Origin: Candidatus Omnitrophota bacterium | GTDB taxonomy: Bacteria; Omnitrophota; Gorgyraeia; Gygaellales; JAMWDD01 | Direction: 5' to 3' | Length of the DNA: 36,757 nucleotides | NCBI GenBank assembly: GCA_028717645.1 | Contig: JAQUNK010000013.1 | Span: 1-36,757 of the forward strand | Part shown: positions 3,110 to 35,894 of the stretch, one piece after another | Layout: each line of letters begins with the position of its first letter | How positions within the stretch are numbered: position 1 is the first letter of the stretch | Program-made: the position numbers and the translations under genes | The notes under the pieces: model-generated | What the model saw: only the letters and a program-made list of their open reading frames with translations | What the model was told of the DNA's origin: nothing | The model's database searches: none

Positions 3110-3138
3110 TTGACAAAGGCGTATCTGGATGTTATATT
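3110..3138 (+). promoter_or_regulatory. Sigma-70-type promoter for tRNA-Ala
   Basis: TTGACA at 3110-3115 is the perfect -35 consensus. A 17-base spacer leads to TATATT at 3133-3138 as the -10 box. Transcription should begin about 7 bases further on, near the 5' end of tRNA-Ala at 3153. This is the best promoter match seen in the window and suits a stable-RNA gene. Confidence 0.8.
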
Positions 3139-3152
3139 AGCAGGATGAATTT

Positions 3153-3228: not shown

Positions 3229-3267
3229 GAATTTTCTGACAAAGAAAATTATGGTGGCACTAAAGCG

Positions 3268-3296
3268 CCCGCCGCAGGCGGGTCAGCCTACGGCTG
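3268..3296. repeat. Two back-to-back GC-rich hairpins
   Basis: CCCGCC-gca-GGCGGG at 3268-3282 is followed directly by CAGCC-tac-GGCTG at 3284-3296. They lie between tRNA-Ala and the next gene. No T-run follows, so a Rho-independent terminator is doubtful. An RNA-processing or attenuation role, or a REP-like short repeat, fits equally well. A related small hairpin (CCCGC-gaa-GCGGG) occurs at 31493-31505. Confidence 0.5.
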
Positions 3297-3316
3297 AAGC
3301 GTAGTACCTCATAGAC

Positions 3317-5654: not shown

Positions 5655-7697
5655 TTAATAATTCTCGTAGCGGAAATAATCCTTGAGCATATCCATAAAT
5701 TCGCGATCAGGAGCGCTTCTACCCTCCAGAGGGTCTGTAAAATCTGCTCGCTCGTCAGCCTCGTATTGCGGGCTTTCCAAATCGAAAAATTTATTTAGGA
5801 TATTCCCTTCTTCCAGAAAACGCGAGACCCGGGTGAAAACGCTTGCGTTATCGTCAAAATAACTTCTCGCCGAGCGGTCGATATGGGGTTTAAGCACGAA
5901 TAAATTCTCTTTCGCGCGGGTAACTGCCACATAAAGGAGCCTGCGTTCTTCTTCCAGGGCGTCGTTGTCCTCTAACGATAGGTACGATGGCAGGTGGCCT
6001 TCGGCCGCGTAGATCAAAAATACCGTGCGCCACTCCAGGCCCTTTGCCGAATGGATAGTTGAAAGTGTCAGGCAACTATCGTCTTTGTCCTTTGCGCCCG
6101 CCTCGATGATGCTTCTTTCCGGCGGCTCAAGCGCCATATCCGTTAGGAATTTTTCCAGTGTTTCGTAGCGCGAGGCAATGCGCTCTAAGGAATCCAGGTC
6201 GTTCAGGCGTTTGTTAAAATCATCATATTTTTCTTTTAAGAGCGGCTGGTAATATTTTAAGAACGCCCGGATCAGGCTGACGGGCTTATCTTTATTTTTA
6301 TCGATGCCCTTCAATATCTTGAACAGACTATCCAGGTCTTCTATCCGGCCCAGCATCTTTTCATCCAGACTTAAGCCCTTATTCTGGGTAATGATATCCG
6401 TTACCAGTTTTTCCGCAGTTTTTGTCCCCACGCCGCGCATTAATAAAAGGGCTCGGTACCAGCTCACCTGGTCCAGGATATTATAGGCGATGCGTAAATG
6501 CGCGATCACATCCTTGATGTGCGCTGCCTCCACGAACTTTTGCCCGCCGTATTTGGCAAAAGGGATGTTCCGGTTGGCCAGTTCTATTTCCAGGTCATGC
6601 GAATGCCAGCCCGAGCGGAAAAGGACGGCCATCTCATTCAGTTCCATGCCTTCTTCCCTTAATTCCAATATCTTATCTACGATATATTTTGATTGGCTGT
6701 TTTCATCTTTGACCTCCACGAAAACCGGCGGCTTACCGCCCTGCTTCTGGGTAAATAGTTTCTTCGGATATTTTTCTTCGGCAAAACTGATCACCTCGTT
6801 GGTCATGTCGAGGATCGCCTGGGTCGAACGATAGTTCTCTTCCAGCGTGATCACCTTTGTTCCTTTAAAAATGCTGGGGAAGTCCATGATGTTCTTAAAA
6901 TTCGCGCCCCGGAAAGAATAAATGCTTTGTGAGTCGTCCCCCACAACCAGGATATTTTTATGTTCTGCGGAAAGGAGGGAAACAATGTAAGCCTGCAACT
7001 TATTGGTATCCTGGTATTCATCGACCATGATGTATTTGTATTTACGCGCCAGCTGGCTGCGCACCGCTTCATGCTCAACCAGCAAATTTTTAAAATAAAT
7101 CAGGAGGTCATCGTAATCAAGGAGCGATTTGGCGTGCTTATATTTGTTATATTCTTTCCTCACCTCTTCGATCTCTTTGGCCCATTCAACGAACTGCGGA
7201 TATTCGTCGTAAAGTATTTCTTCAAGCGTCTTTGCCCGGTTTATCGAACCAGAGATCACTTCCATGAGCGCCTTTTTACGGGGGAACCTTTTATCCTTTT
7301 TATTGAATCCCAGTTGTGTGCGGATAAGATTCACTGCATCTTCTGAATCCGCACGGTCGAGGATGGTAAAATTATGCGAGATGCCTACGAGTTTGGCGTA
7401 TTTCCTTAGAATGGAATTGGCAAAGGAGTGGAATGTCCCTCCCGAGACCCGGGAACAGCGTTCGTCCAGGATCAAAGACGCGCGCCGGAGCATCTCTTCG
7501 GCAGCCTTACGGGTAAAGGTAAGCAAAAGGATCTCTTCCGGCTTTATACCGTGTTCTACCAGGTACGCCACGCGGTAAACCAGGGTCCGGGTTTTGCCGC
7601 TTCCTGCTCCGGCAATAACCAGGTGCGGCCCGTCGATAGACTCTACCGCCTCCAACTGCGCCGGATTTAATTCTTTTGCGTAATTAATTTTTTTCAT
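5655..7697 (-). CDS. UvrD/PcrA-family ATP-dependent DNA helicase (superfamily 1A)
   Basis: A 680-residue 3'-5' DNA helicase. Walker A AGAGSGKT is at residues 29-36, after the Q motif LNPAQLEAV. Motif Ia is LTFTRKAAEEM, motif II DEYQD at residues 226-230, motif III VVGDDSQSIYSFRGA, motif IV LEENYRST, motif V LSTIHSAKGLEW and motif VI LLYVAVTRAKENLFV. All are intact, so the enzyme should be active in repair and replication-fork maintenance. It is a little shorter than typical UvrD (about 720 residues). The start ATG lies inside the last codons of the PilZ gene (14-base overlap), so the two are co-transcribed. I leave the symbol blank because UvrD, PcrA and Rep cannot be separated by eye. Confidence 0.93.
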   Translation of the reverse strand: MKKINYAKELNPAQLEAVESIDGPHLVIAGAGSGKTRTLVYRVAYLVEHGIKPEEILLLTFTRKAAEEMLRRASLILDERCSRVSGGTFHSFANSILRKYAKLVGISHNFTILDRADSEDAVNLIRTQLGFNKKDKRFPRKKALMEVISGSINRAKTLEEILYDEYPQFVEWAKEIEEVRKEYNKYKHAKSLLDYDDLLIYFKNLLVEHEAVRSQLARKYKYIMVDEYQDTNKLQAYIVSLLSAEHKNILVVGDDSQSIYSFRGANFKNIMDFPSIFKGTKVITLEENYRSTQAILDMTNEVISFAEEKYPKKLFTQKQGGKPPVFVEVKDENSQSKYIVDKILELREEGMELNEMAVLFRSGWHSHDLEIELANRNIPFAKYGGQKFVEAAHIKDVIAHLRIAYNILDQVSWYRALLLMRGVGTKTAEKLVTDIITQNKGLSLDEKMLGRIEDLDSLFKILKGIDKNKDKPVSLIRAFLKYYQPLLKEKYDDFNKRLNDLDSLERIASRYETLEKFLTDMALEPPERSIIEAGAKDKDDSCLTLSTIHSAKGLEWRTVFLIYAAEGHLPSYLSLEDNDALEEERRLLYVAVTRAKENLFVLKPHIDRSARSYFDDNASVFTRVSRFLEEGNILNKFFDLESPQYEADERADFTDPLEGRSAPDREFMDMLKDYFRYENY

Positions 7698-13557: not shown

Positions 13558-16500
13558 TTATGCCAAAGGAATTGATCCTGTATCTTTCATCTCTCTAAAG
13601 AACTCTATGCTCTCCTCATCTAATTGCTCTTTCTGCCCCAACACAGTGAGCAACTTCATCAACAGATCTTTCTGCTGATAATCATTAGTGACATTATGCT
13701 TTAAAAGCGAAATTGCCTGTTTGAGATACAGCGCTGCTAATGCATCCCAGCCGTGCTTGAACATTCCTTGCGCAAAATAAATTTTCCTGTCCACCGGGTT
13801 AGCCGGTGCATCCTTGCCTAAGTCCATCTGCTTTATTTGGATGGAACTAAAATCTATCCCAGCGATATCTTGCTTTGAGAGCGGCGATGAAGATGAAGCC
13901 ACGCCAGACTCCTCTGGATCGCGGAATCGCTGAGGTAGCCGAGAGAAGTAAGGCGAGCCTTCTTTGGTAAGCAATTGGCTGATTGCCTGGCCTTTCCGGG
14001 GATATACCATAAACTGTATAGCACCATCGTTCCTGCCCGGGCCGTTAGAAACAAACAATAATCCTCTTTCATTTAATGCCGCTTTTAAATATTTTATCGC
14101 TTCTACCCGCTGGTGTATGTCGTAATATCCCAGGACATTGGAGACCAAAACCACATCTATATTTTCCAATCTTTTCCCATTGATATTTACCTTGCTTAGA
14201 TCAAAACTACCGTCATAATGCGTGAAGTACAGCTTAATGCCTTCTAGTTTTGCTTCGAGTGCCGGATCCTTCAAACTATCGTTCGCCTTCTTTACATATT
14301 CGGGCCTACTATCTACGCCGACCATAGTAATATCCTTAAAACCAGCCTCTTTCAATTTCAGCGCTAATTCTTTGGTTACCGATCCGCCGTCATATCCAAT
14401 ACCGACATCTACGACCAGCAAGGGCTTGTCCTTGGAGAATTTTTCCGCGGTGAACGAAAATCTTTGGGTAGAAATTGTTTCCCCTCCCAATATCTTTATT
14501 ATCTCATCATGCAGGCGATCCAGCCGCCCCGACCAGGTAAGGCCGCGGATCTGCGTGAAAACTGAATGCTCTTCTATTTCTACCGGCGAAGAGGCAAAAG
14601 ATTCTGATTCTGGAAATTCTCCAGCCGCTTTATCCGCAATAACTTCCGGCGCAATATCGTTTAATTTAGTTATATTGCTGCTGAATTCGTTAATAAGATT
14701 CTCTTCGGCCCGACGCGTTTCATAACCTTCCGCGCCAAGGACATGGAGTAAATTGGCCAAGAAATGTGTATGCTCAAAATAATAAAATGCCTTAAGTTCA
14801 TCTCCTGTAAATTTCTGGGCATAAGAAGGCTTGATAACAGGATAAACTTTATTGGTACTAGTGTTCCGATCAAATAACGGATCAACGCTTTCTAATTTTG
14901 GCATGCGGTCTACGGGTGACCAATATCTTGATACTCCGCTTTGATCCTGAGGATCATAATCTTTATAGGAAGAGACAGGGACGTTTTTATAGGTGAATGC
15001 CTTGTTAGCAAAATACATATAAAATACTTCAAAAGATATCCCTTCTTTGGTATTAAATGGCTTGAGATTAAGATTAAATATTCCGTTTGCTTTTTTTATA
15101 GCATCGCTATTCAGAAGGGTATCCCCGAAAAGTGAATCCGTGCCATGAAAATCATATCCTGAATCAGTATCTACGATCAGGATATGTTGCGTATCTTTAA
15201 AAACTCCCTGATCATAAAGATATTTCACAAAATAGGCTGCTTGTTCCGGGCTTTTCCGTATCGCATCATAGTTACCCATCGTCGCCCAAACGCTGTGCAT
15301 TCGCTCGGCAGGAAAACCCTGTTCGCCTAAAACTTCACTCATATATCTGGCAGCCTCATAAAGAGGATCTGCCCCTGCCCTCAAGAATACTATGCGCGTA
15401 TCCGGCTGCTCTTTCGCTTTTTCAAAAACCTTGCCCAGGAATTTAAAAACTGCCGTTGCCGTATCTCTACGTTCTTGATAATACTTTGAGGAAACGCTTG
15501 TAGTATAAACATCGGGGAATTTTTCTTTAAGCTGCGCAGTTGCTTTCTGCCACATAGCAAATGCTATTGTGCCTTCCACCGGCGAAGACGAGCCTTCGGC
15601 CACAGATTGGCGGATGATATAAGAACCTTTTTCTTTAGGGTCAATATTCCTCATATCTAATCCCACTTTGCCTGCTGCTTCTTCCAGCTCAAGGTTACGA
15701 TCAACGCTGCTAAGCAAAACAATGCCCTCGGGTTTTAAGGTCTTTTTCATGGCTAGAAGCATATGTTCATAAATCTCAGGATCGCCAGAACTACCTGCGA
15801 TAACAGGCTTAAACTCAGGGTTAAACAAGCCGCTGGAGAAGATAAAATCTACTTTTGCCTCGAAATCATAATCGCCGATGCCTTGGACGGGGATGCCGAA
15901 ATAACTGATCTTCCCTTCGTCTCTGGTCTTAAGGCGCGGGTCTACCACAATGATCCGGCTGTCCGGTAACTGGCCGGACAACTTTTGCGGAAAATCCTTG
16001 CTGGGCGTGCCGACCAGCATAATGGTCTCGCCGTCTAAGCGGCGCATAGTCTCTTGAGAAGTTATTTTTAATTGGCGGCTGTAGGCCCTGATCAGAGCAC
16101 CCCAAAACTGTTCCGAATGGTCGTCTGCCATCGGTGAAGAGGAAACGGGTCCTGTTATTTTCTCTTTTAAATAGGCCCTTATTTTTTCCGTCGCCAAGCC
16201 GGTAACTATATGATTTATTTCCTGCCTGCTCTCCGGAGCTTTATTCAGGTTATCGCTGATCTCTTGCTCCGTAAAGGGCTTAAAAAATGCGGTGAAATCA
16301 TTGTTGATCACACTTAAACTACTCTTAATGACGTCATTGTAATGCGCGGCGATCCGCGCATGGGGAAGACGGACGATGCTCAATTTATCCACATCGAAGC
16401 CTTTGATCTGGCTATTCCTATCAATGCCGTAGTTTTGGATCTTTATATCTTCATCCCAGACGCCCGTCTGTAGCACTTCCAAATGTCTTTTCTTTAACTC

Positions 16501-19500
16501 TTGTATTACGCGGCCTGCTTCTTGATAAGACGGTAATCTGTTTCTCTCTTGCGCGGATAGTCTGGCAAAGGCCTCTTCGCCCCCAGCTTCTCCCATTGCC
16601 CTGGAAGTGAGCGTTCTTAAATATTCGTCCAGCGGGATAAGCTTTTCTTGGATTATCGCAGTGGGAATGATCAAGTTTCGGCCGTCGGATTTTTTAATTT
16701 CTAAATTATCTATGGTTATGGTGGCGGCAAAATGATTATCCAGGTTCCCCTGCGCTATAGCTAGGCCGGGCTGTATTCTATTTATAAAATAGGCTCTATA
16801 CGCGGGCCAAAAAATTGGATGTAAAATCTTCACTACGAAATCCAGGCCCGGCCGGCTTAAGGCATCGATCTGGCCTCCTGGCTCAGCAAAATAAGTAAGG
16901 ACTCCTTGCCCTAGCGACGCTTTCACCGCCTGCTTAATAATGGCCATTAATTCCGCTTTCACTAACACAGGATCCAGCCCATATCTTGATAGCGCGTCTT
17001 TAAATTCTTGTGAGTCCGCTTTCCCTTGGTATAACTTTATGATCTTATCTATTTCCTGCTCCACCGGCGATGACGTGCCCGGCTTCTGCGGCTCCCTCGT
17101 GTCTTCAGGCGAACTATTGACATTCGGGACTCCGTTCGCTTCACTCACTTCGGCGGTTAGGGGCGAGGAAATAGATTTGTCTCCGGTCACCGCAGAAGAG
17201 ATAGGCTTAACCGGCAGTTTAATTACGAAGCTCGCGCCGCCGTATTGGCTGGAATTATCCGCGGCGATTTCACCGCCCAACATGCGGATGATCTGATAGG
17301 ATAAGGCCATGCCTGTGCCGCTGGTTCCCCGCGTTGAAAAGCCCAGTTCGAAGATCTTCTGCCGTCCATCTACAGTATTTCTTTCTAATACTTCTTTAGG
17401 TATACCCTGGCCGTTATCTTCGATGGCAATTTCTAACTGGCTGCCTTTTTTGCTTAAATTGACAAAGATATTCTTGATCCCCAGATGTACGCCATTGGAA
17501 ACAAACCTCTCTAAGGCGATTTGTAAGGCAAAGCGGTCTGTTCCCTCAATTATACTTTCCCCATCCTGTCTAATGCTCAATTCAGGAATAGGCTCACCCT
17601 TTATGTGCGCCTCTGCTGCTTTCTGGTGTATCTCTTCCAGAATCCCGGCAACGTCTACGCTTTCTTCATGGCGTAAATTTTGCTGCGGGAATCTTATCAG
17701 CAAGAAATACAAGACTTGCTCCAGCCGTAGAAGCTTCTGTTTGATCCGGCCAAGAACTCTTTCTTCGTATTTTTCTTCAAGCTTTGTCTTCCTTTCTTTA
17801 GCGAGCAAAACCTCGATGCCTTGTTCCGAAGCGATGAACATTTCCCATAATTTTTTATAACTCGAGACCAGTTCTTTATCTGACTTATTGGACGCTTTTT
17901 CCAAAAAGGGCTCCATTAATTCCTGATATCCCCTTACGAAATCCTCCATTGGAGCCATTGCTTGACTGAATTCTTCTTTTTCACCGGCTCTATAACCTAA
18001 CATGTGTATATCATCAAATAGGGTATGGAGTAAGCCGGATATGTTCCAATACGCGTTTCCGCCGTGGAAAAACATCCGCGCGCTGATCATCAAACGTTCT
18101 TTTGTCGCCGCCGCATCCTGCACCACCGGCGAAGAGGCAGAGGTTTCGCCTTCAACATATTCCCGCCGCGCGTCTATTACCGGCAGAGAAGGACTCAAGG
18201 CATTTCCCGCTCCTGCTCCTTTTCCACCTAAGGGGATAACTACCGGCTCCTCCGGTGCAGCTTCCGCAGTGGGAGACACTATTTTCTTCTCTTGCGGCCG
18301 AGGTATATTTTTTACTCCCAATTCATTTTTAAGCGCCTGGAAGTCTGCCCCGGACAAAGGCAGGAATATGGCTATGTCCTGGCCGAACATTGTTCCCCTG
18401 CCCGGGATCAGCTCCAGACCTATACTGGCTATTTGTTCTGCGTCATAGACGACCTGCAAGGTAAATTCTTTTTTATATTTTGCCGCCGAAACAAGGCTCT
18501 TTAAAAATACTCCTTTATAAGAAACCACGCCCCTGTTAGTCGCGGTAACCATTACCGGCAGGCTCTTGATACGACCAGCTTTAAGTTCTTTTGCTAACAG
18601 ATTGTAGGTATTTACCGCGAAGTCTGCGGAAAAACACGCATCTACGATAATATTGACCTGAGAAAGCTCTCCGTTGTATTTTTGGGCTAGTTTAAGCAGG
18701 TCATCGGCTAATTCCTGATAGCTATAGGCAATTGGATTCTGCAGATCATCGGAATCCTGCTGGCCCACCTGGCCGGCAGCCAACCAGAAGTGCTGTTCGC
18801 CGCCGTGGCCAGTAAGATAAATATCCACAGAACGAGGCAATACTTCTTTAAACTCTAAACCACTTACAGCCTTGCGTAAATTCGCTTTTTCGGAAGTCCC
18901 TTTAAAAGTTCTTATGTTTTCCTGTTTCAAGCCGAATCCTTGGAATAAACTTGTTACTTCTTCCGGTTTAAAGACCCCTTCCTCGTGAGCAGCGACGATC
19001 AAAAAAGTATCGCTATTGCCTAAATTCCTCTGGCTATAAACTTCTCTTGCCTTCAGAACATACGGCAGGGTTATTTCTATATTCCGGTCGTCTATTTTCA
19101 CGCCAAAGCGGTTCAGGGTAAGTTCTATCGCGCGGGCCACGGAAAATTGATTAGCCGCAGCAAAAGATGCGGTTTTCTCGGCAAAAGCGGGGTTATCCCA
19201 AATACGCATTATGTCCGCGGGAGACATCGTTCCCTCTAATATCTCATTGCTTCTATTGCCTAACTGAAAAAATAAATTCCGCTGCCTTTCATCTTTTACC
19301 CGTAGCGCCAAAGCACCCAGGCCATTCGCTGCCTGCGCGCGGACAAGCGGCTCCGGATCTTCCAATAATATTTTTATTAAATGATCCACCACCATAAGGT
19401 CCCCCACTTTGCCCAGGGCCTCTGCCGCTGCCCCACGGACAAGTGGATGAGGATCTTTTAGCGCTGTGATTAATGCCGCAGTTGCTTCTAGGCCTCCTAT

Positions 19501-22500
19501 TCTACCCAGGGCCTCTGCCGCTGCCTCCTGGCTAAACCGATTTGGACCTTTTAATATTTCTATTAAAACACCTGTGGCCCGCGGGTCACCTATCTTACCT
19601 AAGGCCTTTACCGCTCGCACAGTAACATTGGAATTGTCATCAGGATCATTTAAGCTCTTGATTAATGCTTCTACTGCCGAGGGATCGCCTATCTCGCCCA
19701 GGGCCTCTGCCGCGTAGAGGCGTATGGCCGGCTGAGGATCTTTCAATGTTTTGATCAGCACACTAATTGCCCGACGATCCTTTATTTGGCCCAAAGTTTG
19801 TATCGCATTGATGCGGACCGCATCTTTCGGATCGTTTTGCAAAAGATTGATCAAATATGGAACAGGATCTTCTATGCCCAGGCCCGCTCTTTGCTCCGCG
19901 TCCAGAGGACTGAATATCAGTATTTTCCGTACCTTGGCGGTATTTTCTTGATCAAACGCTGTTTCTGGCTGGGTTAAAGTTATTGCCGGCGGGCTTTGGA
20001 TTTCCCTTGCCGGCTTATGGATAATACCGGCGATAGAAGACACTGGTGAAAAAGAAAATATCAATCCGGAGAGAAGTGCTATTTTAGCGAATTGTTTGAA
20101 GCTGCTTTGCGTAACCGGAGAAGAAGTCCCCATCTTCTGCGGCGCGGCCAGCGGCGAGGAGGCGGCGGGTTCGATAGAAAGAACGCGTTTATTCAAATCA
20201 TCGACCGTCCGAAGGGCTTCTTCCGTAAGGTCGCCTTCTGAATTAAAATATGGCCGCAATGGGTAAAGATCATCGCCTTTTTTGGAAGCTATAACTTGAC
20301 TGCCTAAAGGTTCAAGGTAATTAGTCAAAAAATCATTTTTATCCCTAAACGTCGCGGTAAATTCTCTTATTATCAAATCTTCGTTAGTGATATCGTAACT
20401 AAGGTCAAAATACGCCTTAACGAATTGTCGTTCGCTTTCTGAAAGGCTCAACCATAAATTTCTTGCGGCCTGACGATATCTCGGATTCGTAAAATACTCC
20501 GCGTGGTTTAATTCATGTTGAATTGTTGCCTGGTAGTTTATAGCTGCTCCAAAGCCACCGCCTTGCGGCACAGAGCAACTCACGATCGCGGCATTCTCAG
20601 GGCTGGCTGTATACGTGTCGCCGTTATTAATCAATAATTTTAACCCGAGTAATTCTTTTTTTAGCCTTTGTTCTACGATATTTAATTTAATCCCTTCTTT
20701 TTCAGCAAGGGTATAGAAATTTGCTATATCCGCTAATTTGTAATCGTGCCCTGCCCCTCCTTTGAAATTGGATCTTTTTGCTTCTTCCAACAATTTTTCA
20801 TCTGACAATAGGCCAGTTTCTGTTTCCACAGCAAAATAGAGCCGATCAAACGCCAAGCCTTGCATTGAAGCGTCGCTGAACTTAAAGAAAAATATCGGTT
20901 TGGATTTATGCCTGAATATCTGATAAAGCTTATTTTCCTGCAAATCTATATTCAAAATGTCTTGCCATTGGCTAAATTTTTCTAACTGTCCTGAAGATTG
21001 AAGCGGATAAGCCGGCAGTGATATTTCTAATGCAGACAATTTTTCTGACTTTGAATTATTGTAGTCAAACCAACTATAAGTATTTAACCCTAAGGCTTCT
21101 AGGACCTTTTTGTCTGATAATAGAGGCAGTGTTTTTAAATTGGGCTTGCTAAAAAACAGATAGGGAATTGGAATTTTTATATTATCTCCCGATATCATAA
21201 ACGGCAGGGCAAAAAACGAAGCCAATAATACTATCTTATTGAATATTGAGTGCGTTTTTATTTTCTCCTTGTTAACCGGCGACGAAACCCCCGTCTTCTG
21301 CGGCGCGGTAAGGGGCGAAGAAGTGAACTTGCCATCATTATGTATATTGTTGACAAGCGGGCCTTTACCTATCAAATCCACAAGGATCTCGCCATTCACT
21401 AAATTTACCGTAATCGTCCCACAGGTCAGGACCCTAAACGGCTCCTGCGTGACAAAAAATCTTTCTAACTTAATTTTGCCTGCGGGTTTTTTTTGTCCTT
21501 TTTCAAACACGTTTTCTAAATCTACGTTATAGGCAAAATCTTCTATTTTTGTACCCGGGTAAATTTCATTTTTAAATAATTCTGATTTCCCGGCAGCAAA
21601 GATAGCGTCAACGTCTTTCGCTCTTGCGGCATCCCACTTCTTTGTATTTTCCAGCCCTGCTGACTGCGTTTTGAGATAGCTGATCAACCGGGCCAGGGCC
21701 TCTTTAGAATCCTGCCTACCGAGTAAAGTAACCCCGACCTTATTATCAAACGGAAGCTGTTCCAACTCCCAGACGAAGAACTCTAAAAACAGTTTATGCA
21801 CAGAACTTCCCGCGCTGAATAAATATTGCCCTTGAGTATCAAGCAGAGGTTTTACGCCAATTTGTTGCATTATACTCCTGACGTTGTTAACAAAATCTTT
21901 CCTTAAATACTGCATTGATTCTTCATCAAGCACAGGGGAGGCCACCGGCGAGGATGCGGATTCAACAATTGCGCGCTCCCAGGCCTGGTGGATGGTCAGG
22001 CCTGGTTCATAGGTAGTTTCATATTGGCCTAATCTGCCGTAGTCCACATAAATGGTAAAACTGCCGCCCTTAGAAAGAAAATCTTTAATTATATTATCCT
22101 GGGCGAGGCGGTCGCTATCTGCTATTTCCATAACTTGGCCGGTATCGTGATGCGTAAATACCCATAAACCTGGTTTTACTTTAGCGGCTTCTGTCCCTGT
22201 AACTTTCTGTGTGCGCCAAAGTTTTTCCCTGGCCCAAATGTATTCGTCAAAAGCTTCGGGCAGGGCGTATTCAATATCCGCGGTTGAACCTACTACCTCT
22301 ACCTGGTGTATCAAATCTTCCACCAAATCCATGCGCGGATGAGAATGCAATTTAAGTTCGGCAGTGGGAGAACCGCTTGCCCCCACGGATGCGCCACTCT
22401 CAATGCCTTTTCTAAGTATAAAGAAGGATTTTGCGGGGTTCCTGTCCTGGGAAAGCGCACAAAGCGAAATCTCCGTTTCGATCTGGCCGGCCAGCCAAAA

Positions 22501-24906
22501 AAGCGCTCTGTCTTCGCTTGCATTCTGCGGCAGGCTTTTTAAGAAAAAGAATGGCGTATTTCTGTCTTCACGAAGCCGTTCGGCCGCTTCAGTAATATCG
22601 ATTTCCGCTGTCCTTAACTCAGAGATAATTTTTTCGCCGAGGTCAATAGAGTGCCCTGCTTCAACCAGCGCCAAAGCCCATTTATTCTTCTCTTGCGTAC
22701 CGGCCTTTGTGTATTCTTCAATAAGCTTCTCCTTAAGCCGTATTAATTCCTCTTGTTTTCCTCCTTCTTTATACGATTGGGCCAGCTTGCCTACCGCAAT
22801 AGCGGCGGAATCCCAGACTGCGTATTCATTTTGTTCTTTTAACGCCCTAACCAAAAAATCCGTGCTTTGCGGGGATAGGGCCTGGAAATCTGCCTGTTTA
22901 GTAATAATCTGAATTAGAGACGGGGCGATTTCGGCCGAGGCCTGCTTAAGAATGGCGTTTAATACCTCTACATCAATTGCGCTATTGCGGCTCAAGGGCG
23001 CGTAGATGTAGCGGACCAAATAGTTGACCATATATTCATTGCCTCGTTTTAAAACAGGTAAGAATGTCCGCTGTGTTTCAGGTCCGAGCCTCGGTATAAG
23101 TAGAGATGCGTAACTTATTGTATCCAGTACTTTTTTAGCAGCATCTTCTTGCGCGCATATTCCGGCAATGCCTTTAAATACCGCGTCGGGCAATTCTAAT
23201 GCCGAACCGATATGAACAAGCACCGTCAGGGTATTTAAATCACCGTTCCTTAAGTCTGATAAAAGTGAATCTATTAAACTGTTGGTCTTTTGAGTATCCC
23301 TGGTCAGCGCCTGTAAAAAATATTTTTTATAGAACGGCTGCTGGGAATAGAACACTGGATTAGCCTGCAGATCCCAAAGCAACTCAACTGCCGCCATTTG
23401 AATATTCCTATCCGGATGGTTAACTAAGTTTACGAGGATCTCCAGAGATTGAGTTTCTGCCTTACCCATAAGGAACTGGTTAGAAAAATCCGTTCTATCT
23501 ACGCGAAAAGATTTTTTTTGCCTCTCGCGAATCCAATGAATAACTTGTTCTTCCGATAATGGGGCCGTTGGCTGCTTTTTGTCAAAAAGATCAAAGAGCC
23601 ATGAATCTGGTTCTGATTTATTCCCAAACCCCGTAAAACTCTCCAACGGCGATGAAGTCTTCAATTCCGGCCCGACCTCGACGAAAGAAAATCCGCCATT
23701 AGTGCCCAATTTGTCCCCCAGCGGGCTGCTGGAAATATCCGTGGTATCTTTTACCGGCGTGAGCACGATAGGAGTTGTTGCGAAATCTATACCGCCGCTA
23801 AAATACTGGATCTGTATATTGCCTTGCGCTACTTTCGTTTTATATTCACCTTGTTGTAAAGATCTAATATATTGCTGCCAGATGTCTTCTTTGGACCAGG
23901 GCGTAGCGGATATTAGGTCTTCGGTAAGGCCGCGGCCAATATTTGCGGCTAAGGGTGCCGACTTTCCCTGGTATTGCTGTTTAAACCACTGCGCCAAAAT
24001 CAAAGCATTATAAACCTGGCGAAGTCCTGCGTAGGCAGAAATAGTATTTACTTCTTTGGTCAGTTCCGGAAGGATGGTCTCCTTCATCAGATTTTCAGCA
24101 AAGGCCTGCGTATCATCCTGCGGCGTTTTTTTCAGGTATTCGTTTTCCAAGAGGACTTTCAAAGAAGACTCAACCACCAAAACGCCGTCCTCCGTCTGCC
24201 AGACCTCGGCCTTATCCGGGACGATCCAGAGCCTGTTCTGCGTAGTGACCTGGGCATTATTGCCTAATTTCTGGAATATCTTTGACCAGAAGATTTTTCC
24301 CTGCGGGTGCTCCGGGTGCAGGAGCCTGGCCGCATCTTTTTTCAGGCGCAGGTCCGCCTCCAGGAGGACTTTGCCCAGGTCTGTTCTTTCCAGGTCCTGC
24401 GGTAAGATACTCTCTTTTTCATTGGGCTTTAAATTCACCCAGAAGTTTTCATTGGGCAAAGCAATACCGATCTTAAAATAGGAAATGAGTTTTTCCGCTT
24501 CTTTATTCAGGTTAGAAGTAGTGAGGTGGCTATCGCCTTTATCCAGCAGGAAATTGAAATAATTGTAGGGATTGTCGCGTTCTACGTTTAAGAACCTTAA
24601 AATAGGCGGGTTAAAAGAAGTTAAGCTGGAAGTAAAACTGATCTGTTGTAAATGGCTGGCTAAAGCAGGGCCTAGCTCTAATGGAGAAACGCCAGCAGCA
24701 AAAACCAGCTGCTGGCTCAAGAAGACAATTAAAATAACTGAATTGAGCACCCGCCGGGCAAGCGAAAACTTATGAAAACAACTTATTTTGGCTTGCCCAT
24801 TAAACGAAATCCTCCGAAGCAATACCCTAGCATTGACTACTTGGATTGCGAAGGAGGAAAAAACTTTTTTAAATCTTTTAGAAAGTATGGAAAAAAAATA
24901 TTCCAT
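13558..24906 (-). CDS. Giant 3782-residue multidomain protein with recurrent SSP linkers; possible polyprotein
   Basis: One uninterrupted frame of 3782 codons. An N-terminal hydrophobic segment at about residues 53-71 ends in QQLVFA-AG, a plausible signal peptide, although it sits behind about 50 basic residues. Twelve short linkers centred on S-S-P-(V/L/M/E) cut the chain into about eleven segments, each described separately. In order they are an N-terminal domain, a HEAT-like helical region with a trailing domain, an unknown domain, an HExxH metallopeptidase-like domain, HEAT repeats with a caspase-like domain, a GHKL ATPase, a protein-kinase-like domain, a degenerate Rossmann domain, an unknown alpha/beta domain, a SAM methyltransferase, and a C-terminal helical tail. 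The start codon (ATG 24906) has only a weak AAAGGG upstream and sits beside leader hairpins. A terminator follows the stop. The whole is unlike any single family I know. Giant proteins are reported from Omnitrophota, but this domain set is not one I recognise. Confidence 0.9.
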   Translation of the reverse strand: MEYFFSILSKRFKKVFSSFAIQVVNARVLLRRISFNGQAKISCFHKFSLARRVLNSVILIVFLSQQLVFAAGVSPLELGPALASHLQQISFTSSLTSFNPPILRFLNVERDNPYNYFNFLLDKGDSHLTTSNLNKEAEKLISYFKIGIALPNENFWVNLKPNEKESILPQDLERTDLGKVLLEADLRLKKDAARLLHPEHPQGKIFWSKIFQKLGNNAQVTTQNRLWIVPDKAEVWQTEDGVLVVESSLKVLLENEYLKKTPQDDTQAFAENLMKETILPELTKEVNTISAYAGLRQVYNALILAQWFKQQYQGKSAPLAANIGRGLTEDLISATPWSKEDIWQQYIRSLQQGEYKTKVAQGNIQIQYFSGGIDFATTPIVLTPVKDTTDISSSPLGDKLGTNGGFSFVEVGPELKTSSPLESFTGFGNKSEPDSWLFDLFDKKQPTAPLSEEQVIHWIRERQKKSFRVDRTDFSNQFLMGKAETQSLEILVNLVNHPDRNIQMAAVELLWDLQANPVFYSQQPFYKKYFLQALTRDTQKTNSLIDSLLSDLRNGDLNTLTVLVHIGSALELPDAVFKGIAGICAQEDAAKKVLDTISYASLLIPRLGPETQRTFLPVLKRGNEYMVNYLVRYIYAPLSRNSAIDVEVLNAILKQASAEIAPSLIQIITKQADFQALSPQSTDFLVRALKEQNEYAVWDSAAIAVGKLAQSYKEGGKQEELIRLKEKLIEEYTKAGTQEKNKWALALVEAGHSIDLGEKIISELRTAEIDITEAAERLREDRNTPFFFLKSLPQNASEDRALFWLAGQIETEISLCALSQDRNPAKSFFILRKGIESGASVGASGSPTAELKLHSHPRMDLVEDLIHQVEVVGSTADIEYALPEAFDEYIWAREKLWRTQKVTGTEAAKVKPGLWVFTHHDTGQVMEIADSDRLAQDNIIKDFLSKGGSFTIYVDYGRLGQYETTYEPGLTIHQAWERAIVESASSPVASPVLDEESMQYLRKDFVNNVRSIMQQIGVKPLLDTQGQYLFSAGSSVHKLFLEFFVWELEQLPFDNKVGVTLLGRQDSKEALARLISYLKTQSAGLENTKKWDAARAKDVDAIFAAGKSELFKNEIYPGTKIEDFAYNVDLENVFEKGQKKPAGKIKLERFFVTQEPFRVLTCGTITVNLVNGEILVDLIGKGPLVNNIHNDGKFTSSPLTAPQKTGVSSPVNKEKIKTHSIFNKIVLLASFFALPFMISGDNIKIPIPYLFFSKPNLKTLPLLSDKKVLEALGLNTYSWFDYNNSKSEKLSALEISLPAYPLQSSGQLEKFSQWQDILNIDLQENKLYQIFRHKSKPIFFFKFSDASMQGLAFDRLYFAVETETGLLSDEKLLEEAKRSNFKGGAGHDYKLADIANFYTLAEKEGIKLNIVEQRLKKELLGLKLLINNGDTYTASPENAAIVSCSVPQGGGFGAAINYQATIQHELNHAEYFTNPRYRQAARNLWLSLSESERQFVKAYFDLSYDITNEDLIIREFTATFRDKNDFLTNYLEPLGSQVIASKKGDDLYPLRPYFNSEGDLTEEALRTVDDLNKRVLSIEPAASSPLAAPQKMGTSSPVTQSSFKQFAKIALLSGLIFSFSPVSSIAGIIHKPAREIQSPPAITLTQPETAFDQENTAKVRKILIFSPLDAEQRAGLGIEDPVPYLINLLQNDPKDAVRINAIQTLGQIKDRRAISVLIKTLKDPQPAIRLYAAEALGEIGDPSAVEALIKSLNDPDDNSNVTVRAVKALGKIGDPRATGVLIEILKGPNRFSQEAAAEALGRIGGLEATAALITALKDPHPLVRGAAAEALGKVGDLMVVDHLIKILLEDPEPLVRAQAANGLGALALRVKDERQRNLFFQLGNRSNEILEGTMSPADIMRIWDNPAFAEKTASFAAANQFSVARAIELTLNRFGVKIDDRNIEITLPYVLKAREVYSQRNLGNSDTFLIVAAHEEGVFKPEEVTSLFQGFGLKQENIRTFKGTSEKANLRKAVSGLEFKEVLPRSVDIYLTGHGGEQHFWLAAGQVGQQDSDDLQNPIAYSYQELADDLLKLAQKYNGELSQVNIIVDACFSADFAVNTYNLLAKELKAGRIKSLPVMVTATNRGVVSYKGVFLKSLVSAAKYKKEFTLQVVYDAEQIASIGLELIPGRGTMFGQDIAIFLPLSGADFQALKNELGVKNIPRPQEKKIVSPTAEAAPEEPVVIPLGGKGAGAGNALSPSLPVIDARREYVEGETSASSPVVQDAAATKERLMISARMFFHGGNAYWNISGLLHTLFDDIHMLGYRAGEKEEFSQAMAPMEDFVRGYQELMEPFLEKASNKSDKELVSSYKKLWEMFIASEQGIEVLLAKERKTKLEEKYEERVLGRIKQKLLRLEQVLYFLLIRFPQQNLRHEESVDVAGILEEIHQKAAEAHIKGEPIPELSIRQDGESIIEGTDRFALQIALERFVSNGVHLGIKNIFVNLSKKGSQLEIAIEDNGQGIPKEVLERNTVDGRQKIFELGFSTRGTSGTGMALSYQIIRMLGGEIAADNSSQYGGASFVIKLPVKPISSAVTGDKSISSPLTAEVSEANGVPNVNSSPEDTREPQKPGTSSPVEQEIDKIIKLYQGKADSQEFKDALSRYGLDPVLVKAELMAIIKQAVKASLGQGVLTYFAEPGGQIDALSRPGLDFVVKILHPIFWPAYRAYFINRIQPGLAIAQGNLDNHFAATITIDNLEIKKSDGRNLIIPTAIIQEKLIPLDEYLRTLTSRAMGEAGGEEAFARLSAQERNRLPSYQEAGRVIQELKKRHLEVLQTGVWDEDIKIQNYGIDRNSQIKGFDVDKLSIVRLPHARIAAHYNDVIKSSLSVINNDFTAFFKPFTEQEISDNLNKAPESRQEINHIVTGLATEKIRAYLKEKITGPVSSSPMADDHSEQFWGALIRAYSRQLKITSQETMRRLDGETIMLVGTPSKDFPQKLSGQLPDSRIIVVDPRLKTRDEGKISYFGIPVQGIGDYDFEAKVDFIFSSGLFNPEFKPVIAGSSGDPEIYEHMLLAMKKTLKPEGIVLLSSVDRNLELEEAAGKVGLDMRNIDPKEKGSYIIRQSVAEGSSSPVEGTIAFAMWQKATAQLKEKFPDVYTTSVSSKYYQERRDTATAVFKFLGKVFEKAKEQPDTRIVFLRAGADPLYEAARYMSEVLGEQGFPAERMHSVWATMGNYDAIRKSPEQAAYFVKYLYDQGVFKDTQHILIVDTDSGYDFHGTDSLFGDTLLNSDAIKKANGIFNLNLKPFNTKEGISFEVFYMYFANKAFTYKNVPVSSYKDYDPQDQSGVSRYWSPVDRMPKLESVDPLFDRNTSTNKVYPVIKPSYAQKFTGDELKAFYYFEHTHFLANLLHVLGAEGYETRRAEENLINEFSSNITKLNDIAPEVIADKAAGEFPESESFASSPVEIEEHSVFTQIRGLTWSGRLDRLHDEIIKILGGETISTQRFSFTAEKFSKDKPLLVVDVGIGYDGGSVTKELALKLKEAGFKDITMVGVDSRPEYVKKANDSLKDPALEAKLEGIKLYFTHYDGSFDLSKVNINGKRLENIDVVLVSNVLGYYDIHQRVEAIKYLKAALNERGLLFVSNGPGRNDGAIQFMVYPRKGQAISQLLTKEGSPYFSRLPQRFRDPEESGVASSSSPLSKQDIAGIDFSSIQIKQMDLGKDAPANPVDRKIYFAQGMFKHGWDALAALYLKQAISLLKHNVTNDYQQKDLLMKLLTVLGQKEQLDEESIEFFREMKDTGSIPLA
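13561..13878 (-). other. Giant protein segment L (residues 3677-3782): C-terminal helical tail
   Basis: About 106 residues, mainly helical, with YFAQGMFKHGWDALAALYLK resembling a TPR-like helix pair, then two more helices. No sorting or autotransporter signal is visible at the C-terminus. Confidence 0.4.
13879..13896 (-). repeat. SSP linker 12 (SSSSPL)
   Basis: Residues 3671-3676, between the methyltransferase segment and the C-terminal helical tail. Confidence 0.7.
13897..14580 (-). other. Giant protein segment K (residues 3443-3670): class I SAM-dependent methyltransferase domain
   Basis: Motif I VVDVGIGYDGGS (about 3498-3509) is close to the V-x-D-x-G-x-G-x-G consensus. MVGVDSRPEY is motif II with the acidic ribose-binding residue, followed by FTHYDGSF and IDVVLVSNVLGYYD (motif IV). 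The SAM site looks complete, so activity is likely. The substrate is unknown. Confidence 0.7.
14581..14595 (-). repeat. SSP linker 11 (ASSPV)
   Basis: Residues 3438-3442, directly before the methyltransferase segment and after an acidic stretch. Confidence 0.75.
14596..15576 (-). other. Giant protein segment J (residues 3111-3437): unknown alpha/beta domain
   Basis: Contains RIVFLRAGADPLYEAARYM near residue 3174 and HILIVDTDSGYDFHGTDS near 3250. The pairing of an R-x-G-x-D-P-L-Y motif with a later D-T-x-x-x-x-x-x-G-T motif hints at a nucleotide- or phosphate-binding fold. I cannot assign a family. Confidence 0.35.
15577..15591 (-). repeat. SSP linker 10 (SSSPV)
   Basis: Residues 3106-3110, ending the Rossmann-like segment. 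Confidence 0.7.
15592..16131 (-). other. Giant protein segment I (residues 2926-3105): degenerate Rossmann (methyltransferase-like) domain
   Basis: A 180-residue alpha/beta domain. ETIMLVGTPS, then RIIVVDPRLK, VDFIFSSGLF and a final KPEGIVLLSS follow the strand order of class I methyltransferases. The glycine-rich SAM loop is lacking, so it may bind something else or be inactive. Confidence 0.4.
16132..16143 (-). repeat. SSP linker 9 (SSSPM)
   Basis: Residues 2922-2926, between the kinase-like and the Rossmann-like segments. Confidence 0.7.
16144..17061 (-). other. Giant protein segment H (residues 2616-2921): protein-kinase-like domain
   Basis: The key kinase positions occur in order. K2693 is in FVVKI (beta-3 lysine), there is a hinge-like QEKLIPLDEYL near 2753-2763, D2820-I-K-I-Q-N2825 matches the D-x-K-x-x-N catalytic loop, and D2838 in FDVD matches the metal-binding DFG. 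The N-to-D spacing of 13 equals that of classical kinases. The glycine loop is not obvious. I call a kinase-like fold with moderate confidence. Confidence 0.5.
17062..17169 (-). repeat. SSP linker cluster 7 and 8 (SSPL ... SSPE ... EPQKPGTSSPV)
   Basis: Residues 2580-2615 contain three SSP units in 36 residues. The last, EPQKPGTSSPV at 2605-2615, is the third occurrence of the PQKxGxSSPV module. Confidence 0.85.
17170..18123 (-). other. Giant protein segment G (residues 2262-2579): histidine-kinase-like helices and GHKL ATPase domain
   Basis: The first half is helical with FFHGGNAYWNISGLLHTL, where H is in the position of a dimerisation/phosphoacceptor histidine. The second half is a HATPase_c domain, with a diverged N box (LERFVSNGVHLG), the G1 box E2496-DNGQGIP and a G2 box GTSGTGMALS near residue 2525. 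The ATP lid looks usable. Whether autophosphorylation occurs is unknown, and no receiver domain is present in the chain. Confidence 0.75.
18124..18138 (-). repeat. SSP linker 6 (ASSPV)
   Basis: Residues 2257-2261, between the caspase-like segment and the GHKL segment, after a Pro/Ala/Gly-rich stretch. Confidence 0.75.
18139..20112 (-). other. Giant protein segment F (residues 1599-2256): signal-like helix, HEAT repeats, caspase-like domain
   Basis: Again a signal-peptide-like start follows the linker (about 1603-1627, FKQFAKIALLSGLIF then SSIAG). Residues about 1670-1870 hold six or seven PBS-lyase/HEAT repeats of about 31 residues, with consensus AVEALIKSLNDP and RxxAAEALGEIGD. Residues about 1960-2190 form a caspase-like domain, with H2034 in LTGHGG and C2091 in VDACFSADF. 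That His-Cys dyad is characteristic of clan CD peptidases (caspases, metacaspases, legumains). A Pro/Ala-rich stretch leads to the next linker. Confidence 0.7.
20113..20163 (-). repeat. SSP linker 5, long module SSPLAAPQKMGTSSPV
   Basis: Residues 1582-1598. Twelve to thirteen of sixteen residues match linker 4. The DNA also shares blocks such as cttctgcggcgcgg. A signal-like helix follows here too. Confidence 0.85.
20164..21273 (-). other. Giant protein segment E (residues 1212-1581): signal-like helix plus HExxH metallopeptidase-like domain
   Basis: Directly after the linker comes a basic stretch and a hydrophobic helix (about 1225-1240, IVLLASFFALPFMISG), shaped like a signal peptide. The zinc motif is H1464-E-L-N-H1468, in QHELNHAEYF, preceded by a predicted helix. 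A downstream NEDLIIREFTATF offers a glutamate as a third zinc ligand, in the gluzincin manner. Peptidase activity is inferred; no family name can be given by eye. Confidence 0.6.
21274..21324 (-). repeat. SSP linker 4, long module SSPLTAPQKTGVSSPV
   Basis: Residues 1195-1211. Nearly the same module occurs at residues 1582-1598, and its second half at 2605-2615. A signal-like helix follows. Confidence 0.85.
21325..21930 (-). other. Giant protein segment D (residues 993-1194): unknown domain
   Basis: About 200 residues between two linkers, mixed alpha/beta. It contains AGSSVHKLFLEFFVWELEQL and later RFFVTQEPFRVLTCGTITVN. I do not recognise the fold and see no catalytic signature. Its isolated size and the linkers on both sides suggest an independent domain. 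Confidence 0.35.
21931..21957 (-). repeat. SSP linker 3 (ASSPVASPV)
   Basis: Residues 984-992, a double S-P-V linker. The preceding 20 residues (GLTIHQAWERAIVES) close the former domain. Confidence 0.75.
21958..23643 (-). other. Giant protein segment C (residues 422-983): HEAT-like helices and a possible degenerate JAB-like domain
   Basis: Residues about 460-770 are almost entirely helical with HEAT/ARM-like spacing (for example NLVNHPDRNIQMAAVELLWD). The last about 200 residues look alpha/beta and hold H854-S-H856-P, with S874-T-A-D877 further on. JAB1/MPN metalloproteases carry HxH followed by SxxD, normally after 7-10 residues. Here the gap is 17, so this is at best a divergent relative. 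Confidence 0.4.
23644..23733 (-). repeat. SSP linkers 1 and 2 of the giant protein
   Basis: Residues 392-396 (SSSPL) and 417-421 (TSSPL) flank a 20-residue glycine-containing stretch. They mark the end of the N-terminal domain. Confidence 0.75.
23734..24906 (-). other. Giant protein segment A (residues 1-391): signal sequence and N-terminal domain
   Basis: Residues about 53-71 are hydrophobic and end in a signal-peptidase-like A-x-A context. The rest is a soluble domain with WIVPDKAEVW, then NTISAYAGLRQVYNALILAQW, and finally IQYFSGGIDF before the first linker. I have the impression that the Y/L-R-Q-(V/I)-Y-N-A plus YFSGG pattern recurs near the N-terminus of other giant proteins from this lineage. 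I cannot verify that here. No catalytic motif is visible. Confidence 0.55.
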
Positions 24907-33032: not shown

Positions 33033-33173
33033 AAATTCGAAATTCTAAATCCGAAATTCGGAACAAATTAGAAATCTCAAATCACAATTTTCCAAACTTA
33101 AATGTTTGGAATTTGAAGAATCCGAATTTATGATTTGTTTCGGATTTCGATATTCGGATTTCGGATTTCAAAT
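33033..33173. repeat. Long imperfect palindrome, MITE- or REP-like (copy B)
   Basis: Same phrase structure as 13305-13476 (ATTCGAAATTCTAAATCC...CCAAACTT then AAGTTTGG-like sequence and ATTCGGATTTCGGATTTC). Its right edge overlaps the last bases of the radical SAM gene, including the TGA stop at 33168-33170. It separates the radical SAM gene from the ACP gene. Confidence 0.85.
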
Positions 33174-34628
33174 ATGGGTTTCCCCTTTTGTCGCTGCAGC
33201 TTCCCATTTACCGACTCCGGCCATAACGTCCTGAAAACAAAGCTTGGCCAGCGGATCAAAATTGCTTTCCATGATCCGGTTTATCCGTCCGGGTTTCGAG
33301 AAAAATTCGCGCATACACCATGAACCAAGCCTGCCTAAGTCTTCGATACTAAGGTGATCTGTGGGAATTACCGGATGCAGGAAATCCCAGGTGCTGAAAT
33401 CCACTTTCTTCGGGTCGATCCAGTTCTTTTTTAAGGATATCTTCCACATCGGGGAATTCGGGGCCGGCGTAACATAGCCCACCCAAAGGATATCCGGGTC
33501 CACCTGGTCGGTAAATTCAAAACGCTGTTTGACGATCTCCTCGGTATCATAATCAAAGCCCATCATGATATCGGCGACGATGGCGATATCCTGCTTACGC
33601 AGAATCTCGATGGTCTTCTTGATCTGCTCGATGGTGGTGCCCTTGGCGATCTTTTTCAGTTCCGACTGCGTGGTCACCTCGATGCCGAAGACGCCCATAA
33701 ACAAACCGGTCTCTTTCATCAGGGGCAATATCGATTCGCAATTCACCCAATCCACCGCCCGGCCCAGAGACACCCATTTGATATCGATCTTTTTCTGTTT
33801 TTTTAGCTCGCAGAACCTTTTAACACGCGCGGGGTCGACATTAAAATTGTCGTCCTGGATGACCACTACTTTTACCCCGTATTTATTCTGCAGGAGTTCC
33901 ATCTCTTCGATCACCCGCTCAGGGCTCTTGGCGCGCCATTTTAAAAAGTCAGAAGGTGAACGCGGGTCAAACTGGTCCCACTCGTAACAGAAGGTACAGG
34001 CCGACGGACACCCGCGGCTGGTAACCATATCCACGAACGGTTTCCAATAAGTATGTCCGACGTATTTGTCCATCGGGAACAGGTCATACGCGGGAAGCGG
34101 AAGTTTATCCAGGTCGGTCATCAAAGGTTTATGCGGGCCCATCACGATCTGGCCGTCAATGCGCGAGGTCACACCGCCCACATCCTTAAGATTCTTCTTT
34201 TTGTCTATTGCCTCGATCAGGTCGCCGAAAGATTCTTCTTCGCCCATGACCACGAAGTCTACTGCGGCATTTTCTTCTAAGGTCGGCACCGGCATGGCCG
34301 AATACCACAGGCCGCCGAGGATGATCTTGGTTTTGGGAAGCACCTGTTTAATTTTCTGCGCCGCTTCTTTAAAATAACGCAACACGCCATACCCGCCGTA
34401 ACCGTGGATCTGCTCACCCATCACCACCACGTCGGGATTTTTCTGCTTGACCTGCTCTACGATCTGCTCCATCGGTATCTCCAGCGCCCTTCCGTCGATA
34501 ACCGATACGTCGTTATAACCCCTTTCGCGCACATACGCTGCCCAATGCGCGTAGAGCTGGTTAGGCGAACGGTGAATTCCGTGCGTTGCCCAGGCACCTA
34601 CTTTCGGCATTACAAATAATATCTTCAT
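33168..34628 (-). CDS. B12-binding-domain radical SAM enzyme
   Basis: A 486-residue protein. Residues about 1-150 form a Rossmann-like cobalamin-binding domain (VMGEQIHGYGGYG, KIILGGLWYS), without the base-off histidine motif DxHxxG. C207-x-x-x-C211-x-x-C214 (CPSACTFC) binds the iron-sulfur cluster of the radical SAM domain. Family members methylate unreactive carbons or make rings (BchE, HpnJ-like, PhpK). In a polyketide-like cluster it could methylate, cyclise or rearrange the product. GGAGGA precedes the ATG at 34628. The last residues (KGETHI) and stop run into the palindromic repeat, so the natural end may have been altered by its insertion. Confidence 0.9.
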   Translation of the reverse strand: MKILFVMPKVGAWATHGIHRSPNQLYAHWAAYVRERGYNDVSVIDGRALEIPMEQIVEQVKQKNPDVVVMGEQIHGYGGYGVLRYFKEAAQKIKQVLPKTKIILGGLWYSAMPVPTLEENAAVDFVVMGEEESFGDLIEAIDKKKNLKDVGGVTSRIDGQIVMGPHKPLMTDLDKLPLPAYDLFPMDKYVGHTYWKPFVDMVTSRGCPSACTFCYEWDQFDPRSPSDFLKWRAKSPERVIEEMELLQNKYGVKVVVIQDDNFNVDPARVKRFCELKKQKKIDIKWVSLGRAVDWVNCESILPLMKETGLFMGVFGIEVTTQSELKKIAKGTTIEQIKKTIEILRKQDIAIVADIMMGFDYDTEEIVKQRFEFTDQVDPDILWVGYVTPAPNSPMWKISLKKNWIDPKKVDFSTWDFLHPVIPTDHLSIEDLGRLGSWCMREFFSKPGRINRIMESNFDPLAKLCFQDVMAGVGKWEAAATKGETHI

Positions 34629-34646
34629 TTCTTCCTCCGTTATATT

Positions 34647-35876
34647 TTAAGCTTTTTCTACTACTAAGACAGAATTAATTCCGCCCCTGCCGCGCGAAAT
34701 GATCAGGGCCTTTTTAATTTCAGAAGGTTTTGCTTCTTTAGTTACATAATTTAATCCGTTCGGGCTCGGCTCGTCCAGATTCACGGTAGGCGGGACCAGG
34801 TTATGCTCCATGGCCTGGATGGTGACAATGAGGTCCATTGCTCCCGAGGCGCCCAGCAAGTTCCCGAACATCGATTTCGGGCAGCTTATGGGTATGTCTT
34901 TTGAGCGCGTGCCGAAAACATTCTTTATCGCAGCTGCCTCGGAATTATCCCAGATGTCTATGGCTGCGCCGTCTAAACTGATATAATCTATTTCATCTTT
35001 GGATATCTTGGCGTCGGTAAGTGCCAGGTTGATCGCCCGGCTCAATTCTTTTCCGTCGGAGGCGGGATTGATCCGGTTCACTCCGTCACAGCTGGTGCCA
35101 TAGCCTGAAATATAGGCTGAGATATTCGCGGATCTGGCCTTAGCGCGCGCGACGGGTTCCATCACTACAATGCCTGCGCCTTCACCGATGACCATACCAC
35201 TGCGTTTCTTGTCAAAAGGCCGGTATGCACTTTCCGGATGTGCGTTATCTTTAGAGAGGCCGCCGTAAGTATTGCAGCATAACAAAGCGTAAGGAGTGAC
35301 CGGCGCCTCCATCCCTCCGGCGAGGATCATATTCAGTCTATTTTTATTCAATGTTTTTGCCGCGTAGCCGATGGCCATCAGCGAACTTGCCCTGTCTGCG
35401 ACCACGGTCTTGCTGAAACCTTTTATACCGTAATAAATGGAGATCTGCCCCTGGGGCGCAGCCGGGAACCAGGCCGAGGCCATGTAGGGCGAAACTCCCT
35501 CGCGGCCCTCGATGTATAGATCGCGTAGTTCCGTTTCCGCGTAGAGCCATCCGCCGATGGCATTACCTAAAAATATGCCTACCTGATTCGGATCCTCTTG
35601 GGCGATCTCGATACCTGCATCCTGCAGGCTCATTTCCGAGGCGATCAGGGCCATGTGCGAGAAGGCGTCTATCTTTTTTAAGAGCCGCTCGGAAACATGG
35701 CTGTATTTTTCCAGGTCGTCAATCTGCCCGGCGATATGCGACGGGTAGCGGGACGCGTCAAAACGGGTGATCTTTTTGATAAATGACCTGCCGCTTTTTA
35801 TATTCGCCCAGAATTGACGGCGGCCGATGCCTGAAGGCGCGACTACTCCTATTCCTGTAACTGCTATTTTATCCAC
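34647..35876 (-). CDS. Chain-length factor (KS-beta-like ketosynthase without catalytic residues)
   Basis: 409 residues from the GTG at 35876, which has AAGGAAGG 6 bases upstream. An in-frame ATG at 35894 has no ribosome-binding site. The thiolase-fold order of FabF/KS enzymes is complete, but the active-site Cys position holds Arg162 (VVADRASSLMAIG), the first His position holds Asp302 (SLDGAAID) and the second His position holds Asn339 (MFGNLLGASGA). All three catalytic residues are thus lost, as in chain-length factors that pair with an active ketosynthase. In classical ones the Cys is replaced by Gln, so Arg is unusual. The active partner lies directly upstream at 35982. Confidence 0.88.
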   Translation of the reverse strand: MDKIAVTGIGVVAPSGIGRRQFWANIKSGRSFIKKITRFDASRYPSHIAGQIDDLEKYSHVSERLLKKIDAFSHMALIASEMSLQDAGIEIAQEDPNQVGIFLGNAIGGWLYAETELRDLYIEGREGVSPYMASAWFPAAPQGQISIYYGIKGFSKTVVADRASSLMAIGYAAKTLNKNRLNMILAGGMEAPVTPYALLCCNTYGGLSKDNAHPESAYRPFDKKRSGMVIGEGAGIVVMEPVARAKARSANISAYISGYGTSCDGVNRINPASDGKELSRAINLALTDAKISKDEIDYISLDGAAIDIWDNSEAAAIKNVFGTRSKDIPISCPKSMFGNLLGASGAMDLIVTIQAMEHNLVPPTVNLDEPSPNGLNYVTKEAKPSEIKKALIISRGRGGINSVLVVEKA

Positions 35877-35894
35877 CCCGCACCTTCCTTTCAT

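Follow-up and report, generated by a model that had tools for sequence, protein, structure and literature searches.

Giant open reading frames (ORFs) have been described in the phylum Omnitrophota, including one in Ca. Velamenicoccus archaeovorus for which a protein of 39,678 amino acids is cited (PMC10066038, citing Kizina et al. 2022). Their conservation has been described as poor and their function as obscure (PMC10066038), and a predatory or epibiotic lifestyle has been proposed for relatives (PMC10066038, PMC12583861). Membership of the same phylum, very long ORFs and a scarcity of annotated domains link them to the locus described here. Likenesses are also seen to three other kinds of protein: the MARTX toxins of Vibrio, in which conserved N- and C-terminal arms surround a string of modular domains, one of which can be a cysteine protease (PMC5218395, PMC6315884); the polyvalent proteins of phages and conjugative elements, which carry many unrelated domains in each chain (PMC5512222); and viral-type self-processing polyproteins, where several proteins share one chain and a short joint motif is repeated.

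The locus lies in a window of 36,757 nucleotides (contig JAQUNK010000013.1 of assembly GCA_028717645.1, from a Candidatus Omnitrophota bacterium), where one intact, open 11.3-kb frame encodes a chain of 3782 residues containing 15 Ser-Ser-Pro (SSP) tripeptides, against 0.9 expected from its composition (residues 393 to 1595 in the first half of the chain, 2258 to 3673 in the rest; Table 1). Fourteen have the form SSP[VLIM], whereas 2000 shuffles of the same protein average 0.23 and never exceed 3, the fourth residue being V in seven cases, L in six, and M and E in one each. The SSP-linker-rich protein proposed in a first-pass annotation of this DNA is thus real, and its figure of twelve linkers is better given as 15 sites at about 11–12 joints, because some sites are doubled or tripled. 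None of the 14 other confident proteins of the window (5817 aa) contains an SSP, and a degenerate DNA pattern of the motif, which represents about 60% of the ORF's SSP sites, formed no cluster outside this ORF in the 1.44-Mb genome. Because the motif clusters only inside this ORF, a linker DNA repeat spread over the genome was ruled out. Translation starting within the ORF right after SSP was ruled out as well, NTG being present in only about half of the following codons.

Judged by its sequence, the window protein is a member of a large, previously undescribed header–cargo–footer family of Omnitrophota, its own chain comprising a signal peptide and a header of about 320 residues, some ten cargo modules and a footer of about 105 residues. 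The header follows directly on the predicted signal peptide, behind a basic N-terminus, and is recognised by the header HMM at E 7.7e-132; its AlphaFold model, which is confident (pLDDT 82), gave no fold match in the PDB below E 1e-3. When the N-terminal 1875 residues, which reach past the header, were used as a query, matches were obtained in 109 of 128 genomes of the order, mostly over residues 50–380. An alignment built from 31 headers found matches in 10 of 12 chosen genomes and in 22 of 117 genomes drawn from the whole phylum, belonging to several families of the class; in GTDB species it gave 491 loci, 78 of which were kept, nearly all labelled Omnitrophota. Copy number reaches about 27 matches in one genome, compared with one in that of the window, and header-bearing frames vary in length between a few hundred and 6849 aa. 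SSP is scarce or absent in many header proteins, so not every member needs the tripeptide, and some SSP giants have no visible header, these being contig ends or the giant frame of genome G007.

At the other end of the chain, the AGIDF of the footer (aa 3682–3686) keeps the invariant G-I-D, and the domain is divergent, with 13–24% identity to the common GGIDFR type. The motif GI[DN][FLM], typically GGIDFR, occurs in 55 of the 61 family tails examined, and the sister-genus protein has the form GGIDL. The footer gave no match in Pfam or NCBIfam and no credible one in a PDB sequence search. The window protein's footer domain also ends several other frames in two further genomes (L081–L090 in G005 and G003) and is found alone in frames of 127 aa.

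Table 1. Features of the modular ORF in the window; aa, residues of the 3782-aa chain.
Feature	Position	Strand	Remarks
Whole modular ORF, 3782 aa	13558..24906	(-)	
Signal-peptide region, hydrophobic core aa 52-76	24679..24906	(-)	hydrophobicity and header alignment
Header domain, aa ~77-392, conserved family	23731..24678	(-)	no match in Pfam, NCBIfam or PDB
SSPL joints, aa 393 and 418	23644..23730	(-)	both also at sister-genus locus
Weak HEAT/Arm-like repeats and further C-terminal part, aa 421-984	21955..23646	(-)	
SSPV joint, aa 985	21943..21954	(-)	
Module aa 988-1195	21322..21945	(-)	no match in family and PDB sequence searches
Double joint SSPLTAPQKTGVSSPV, aa 1196-1211 (SSP at 1196, 1208)	21274..21321	(-)	
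Zincin-like module, own hydrophobic N-terminus, HELNH at aa 1464	20161..21273	(-)	
Double joint SSPLAAPQKMGTSSPV, aa 1583-1598 (SSP at 1583, 1595)	20113..20160	(-)	
HEAT-repeat part of module, hydrophobic N-terminus aa 1609-1629	19300..20112	(-)	
Caspase-like part: His2034-Gly, Asp-Ala-Cys2091	18136..19299	(-)	motif-level
SSPV joint, aa 2258	18124..18135	(-)	
Histidine-kinase-type ATPase module, aa 2262-2579; HATPase_c 2457-2567	17170..18123	(-)	
Triple joint SSPL...SSPE...SSPV, aa 2580-2615 (SSP at 2580, 2598, 2612)	17062..17169	(-)	
AceK/protein-kinase-like module	16141..17061	(-)	weak match
SSPM joint, aa 2923	16129..16140	(-)	
Rossmann/methyltransferase-like module	15589..16128	(-)	fold by eye only
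SSPV joint, aa 3107	15577..15588	(-)	
Module aa 3111-3438	14593..15576	(-)	no match in family and PDB sequence searches
SSPV joint, aa 3439	14581..14592	(-)	
SAM-methyltransferase-like module	13891..14580	(-)	kept in sister genus at ~52%
SSPL joint, aa 3673	13879..13890	(-)	
C-terminal footer, AGIDF... type, aa 3677-3782	13561..13878	(-)	counterpart of family's GGIDFR footer

The cargo had earlier been read as separate protein-like segments that include two protease-like domains, two ATP-binding domains and a methyltransferase. Their modular nature is borne out, domain borders matching the SSP sites, and the individual assignments differ in firmness. Those of the histidine-kinase-type ATPase and the HEAT repeats are firm, those of the methyltransferase and the AceK-like kinase come from weak, sub-threshold matches, and the two protease-like segments, which do carry HELNH and caspase-type His/Cys motifs, are putative assignments at motif level, the only family match of the zincin-like module being very weak (MPTase-PolyVal, E 0.19). 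This last module has homologues at 47–52% in proteins of genome G064, one of them header-bearing, so that single modules are indeed found in other contexts, as had been anticipated. The caspase-type pair His2034/Cys2091 is conserved in one 29%-identical homologue, the AlphaFold model of the segment (pLDDT 38) being too poor for fold use, while the AceK/protein-kinase-like and Rossmann/methyltransferase-like modules have homologues at 33% and 26% in a 42,913-aa frame of G007 and an 11,118-aa frame of G006, respectively. PDB sequence searches of four modules gave no credible match. Signal-peptide-like hydrophobic stretches are also present directly after two SSP joints (21178–21249 and 20020–20082, minus strand; aa 1220–1243 and 1609–1629), and the modules that follow look as if they had once been separate exported proteins.

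Cargo varies between members of the family, with PGK, TIM and FBPase in relatives and HEAT, zincin-, caspase-, histidine-kinase- and methyltransferase-like modules in the window protein. Individual header-bearing loci carry FBPase and TIM (L162), PGK (L149) or a glycosyltransferase (L168), and the tally over 42 members is PGK 4, PGM 3, TIM 2 and FBPase 2, along with enolase, iPGM and GAPDH. In L162, SSP 1395 and SSP 1674 bracket the TIM module, whose Lys, His and Glu motifs are intact. SSP chains with no visible header contain an amylase, a starch synthase, two PFKs, methyltransferases, an adenylate kinase (ADK) and MtaB. The idea that such giants are the sole source of housekeeping enzymes was ruled out by the free ADK and PFK found in the same genomes, which make the giant-borne copies extra; the PFK copies inside giants are divergent. 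Similarly extended chains occur in the same order as the window, namely an open frame of 30,185 aa whose 55 SSP sites begin at residue 4834 (G055:C4, L233–L239), and the frame of 42,913 aa, with SSP mostly in its second half (G007:C2, L062–L072), from a genome in which the header alignment found no match.

The modular ORF is flanked by a glutamyl-tRNA synthetase-like gene and other chromosomal genes, conserved on both sides in the sister genus, and no phage or plasmid genes were seen near it. At the same syntenic locus of the sister genus the header is 70–77% and the C-terminal part about 52% identical, and window residues ~455–3440 have no counterpart there except a paralogous methyltransferase, in a comparison that covers part of the interior of the G001 locus, which is split at the first joint over two contigs. 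Relative to the sister genus, the n-region of the signal peptide contains an insertion of about 38 aa (24745–24858, minus strand), which has a strong RNA fold (z -4.1), is single-copy in the genome and has no Rfam match. Elsewhere in the window (33168–36757), two ketosynthase-like genes and a B12-binding radical-SAM-like gene were identified by eye near a short-chain dehydrogenase-like gene.

That SSP is a real joint between modules, and the place where modules are exchanged, is well supported by sequence comparison of close relatives. Genomes G048 and G108 are sisters, about 80% identical, and share a giant ORF whose homologous blocks have been deleted, inserted or moved; 11 of 16 block ends fall within 12 aa of an SSP, compared with 9% expected, and the median distance to SSP is 5 versus 76 aa. 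One module (6957–7219) has shifted as a unit, and the segment 9407–9545, bounded by two SSPs, is absent from the sister. Set against the more distant G055, 7 of 12 block ends are no more than 12 aa from SSP, and SSP[VLIMA] was never found within Pfam domains (0 of 67 sites in six proteins; 14 expected). G048 also contains a duplicated PFK module (L074:3010–5277), 1166 bp long and 100% identical, which begins exactly with the first nucleotide of an SSP; the contig has an N gap, and an assembly error is possible. Free variation of SSP sites among close relatives, with domain boundaries lying elsewhere, had been named in the first-pass annotation as the pattern that would speak against its proposal; between sister species the sites do not vary freely and the domain borders match them.

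With a signal peptide, a conserved header and footer and a large family to take into account, the best picture is no longer that of a polyprotein standing alone but that of a modular carrier predicted to be exported. Export is predicted from the signal peptide, the basic N-terminus and the low cysteine content, which agree with it (six Cys in the chain, 0.16%, compared with 0.31% in header ORFs and 0.9–1.0% elsewhere). In the explanation we favour, signal peptide and header are followed by a changing series of enzyme and binding modules and then by the footer, with [S/A/T]-S-S-[P/A]-[V/L/I/A] as the joint linking the modules. Recombination at the joints causes modules to be gained, lost, duplicated or moved, the ends staying as the cargo is replaced. 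The shared ends may carry the chain out of the cell, and the pentapeptide would be kept because it is recognised, most probably by a protease that frees the modules after export. The anatomy and the module swapping, taken alone, we hold to be highly probable; for the whole, i.e. a Sec-exported modular multi-enzyme Omnitrophota protein whose joint pentapeptide is kept for recognition, most likely by a processing protease, we put the chances at about even.

The main rival is a permanent fusion, in which the same modular exported chain is never cut and SSP is a plain linker, copied by linker recombination and kept for flexibility or by descent; this is a genuine possibility, which we would place somewhat short of even. 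Modules do recombine at linkers, which alone would spread one linker sequence, and linker codons are uniform within a genome, but a compositional linker needs neither a motif held so sharply to five residues with an aliphatic end nor lineage-specific codons. Over 177 sites the motif reads [S 49%, A 21%, T 11%]-S-S-P-[V 42%, L 24%, I 16%, A 13%], and the positions outside it show no marked preference. SSP is held between sister species in 42 of 49 cells, against 0.28 expected from linker Ser and Pro, whereas adjacent linker Ser and Pro outside SSP are held at only 63–70%. Of the 33 interior sites 28 persist, and deletion accounts for two of the five losses; the canonical interior sites lost number three, two by deletion and one by substitution, which also sits poorly with a permanent fusion.

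Codon usage bears likewise on whether SSP could be the by-product of a recombination-promoting DNA motif (TCNTCGCCG...), the peptide itself having no role. The middle Ser codon is TCG in 12 of the 15 sites of the window ORF (about 10–13% overall) and at many SSP sites of G048, G022 and G001, and the PFK duplication starts exactly at SSP codons. However, AGC/AGT is favoured instead in G007, G013, G028 and G006, header proteins also use an enriched SSA form ([AST]SSA[VLIM], 59 vs 2.5), and it is the peptide that is common to lineages, not the DNA, with sites in frame and at domain borders; a DNA-level site is improbable. Most improbable of all is an assembly artefact or decaying fusion pseudogene. 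Most of the genomes are MAGs and the perfect identity of the PFK duplicate, on a contig with an N gap, would fit an artefact, but the window frame is open all through, synteny on both sides is kept in an independent MAG, and dozens of separate assemblies repeat this architecture. A sharp pentapeptide coded differently by lineage is as expected if something recognises the peptide, and we infer that the motif is such a recognised peptide, for which a protease site would be the simplest reading.

Returning to the exported modular carrier, proteolytic processing at its joints is plausible, and a role in a predatory or epibiotic lifestyle might be inferred from the lifestyle proposed for relatives. 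The fullest version we consider less likely than not: a new exported polyprotein system in which interchangeable enzymes, glycolytic ones included, leave the cell on a header–footer carrier and may enter prey or host cells, the joints are cut by a dedicated protease, and recombination there reshuffles the payload between species. The shared header, footer and joint peptide raise the question of whether predatory or epibiotic bacteria export PGK, TIM and FBPase and free them from giant chains; no SSP-type or exported glycolytic fusions in Omnitrophota were found in the open-access literature.

Considering the known systems again, viral-type polyproteins differ in that the members of the present family are not known to have a protease in common, and none was seen that the relatives' SSP chains all carry. 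Unlike MARTX toxins, header-family relatives carry metabolic enzymes as cargo, and neither RTX repeat arms nor an InsP6-activated cysteine protease domain was matched in the window chain by Pfam or NCBIfam. The very weak MPTase-PolyVal match of the zincin-like module is a further likeness to polyvalent proteins, from which the window ORF differs in being chromosomal, between housekeeping genes, with signal peptide, header and footer. As to the giant ORFs of Omnitrophota, the published accounts, as far as they are available to us, mention neither a header or footer nor a joint peptide in common, and no swapping of modules. Together, header, footer and joint peptide would provide a grammar for reading Omnitrophota giant genes, with which modules can be excised in silico for assignment and comparison and swap sites can be predicted. 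The window ORF, at 11.3 kb, falls below the 20-kb limit applied to those giant ORFs, whereas its SSP-jointed relatives exceed it.
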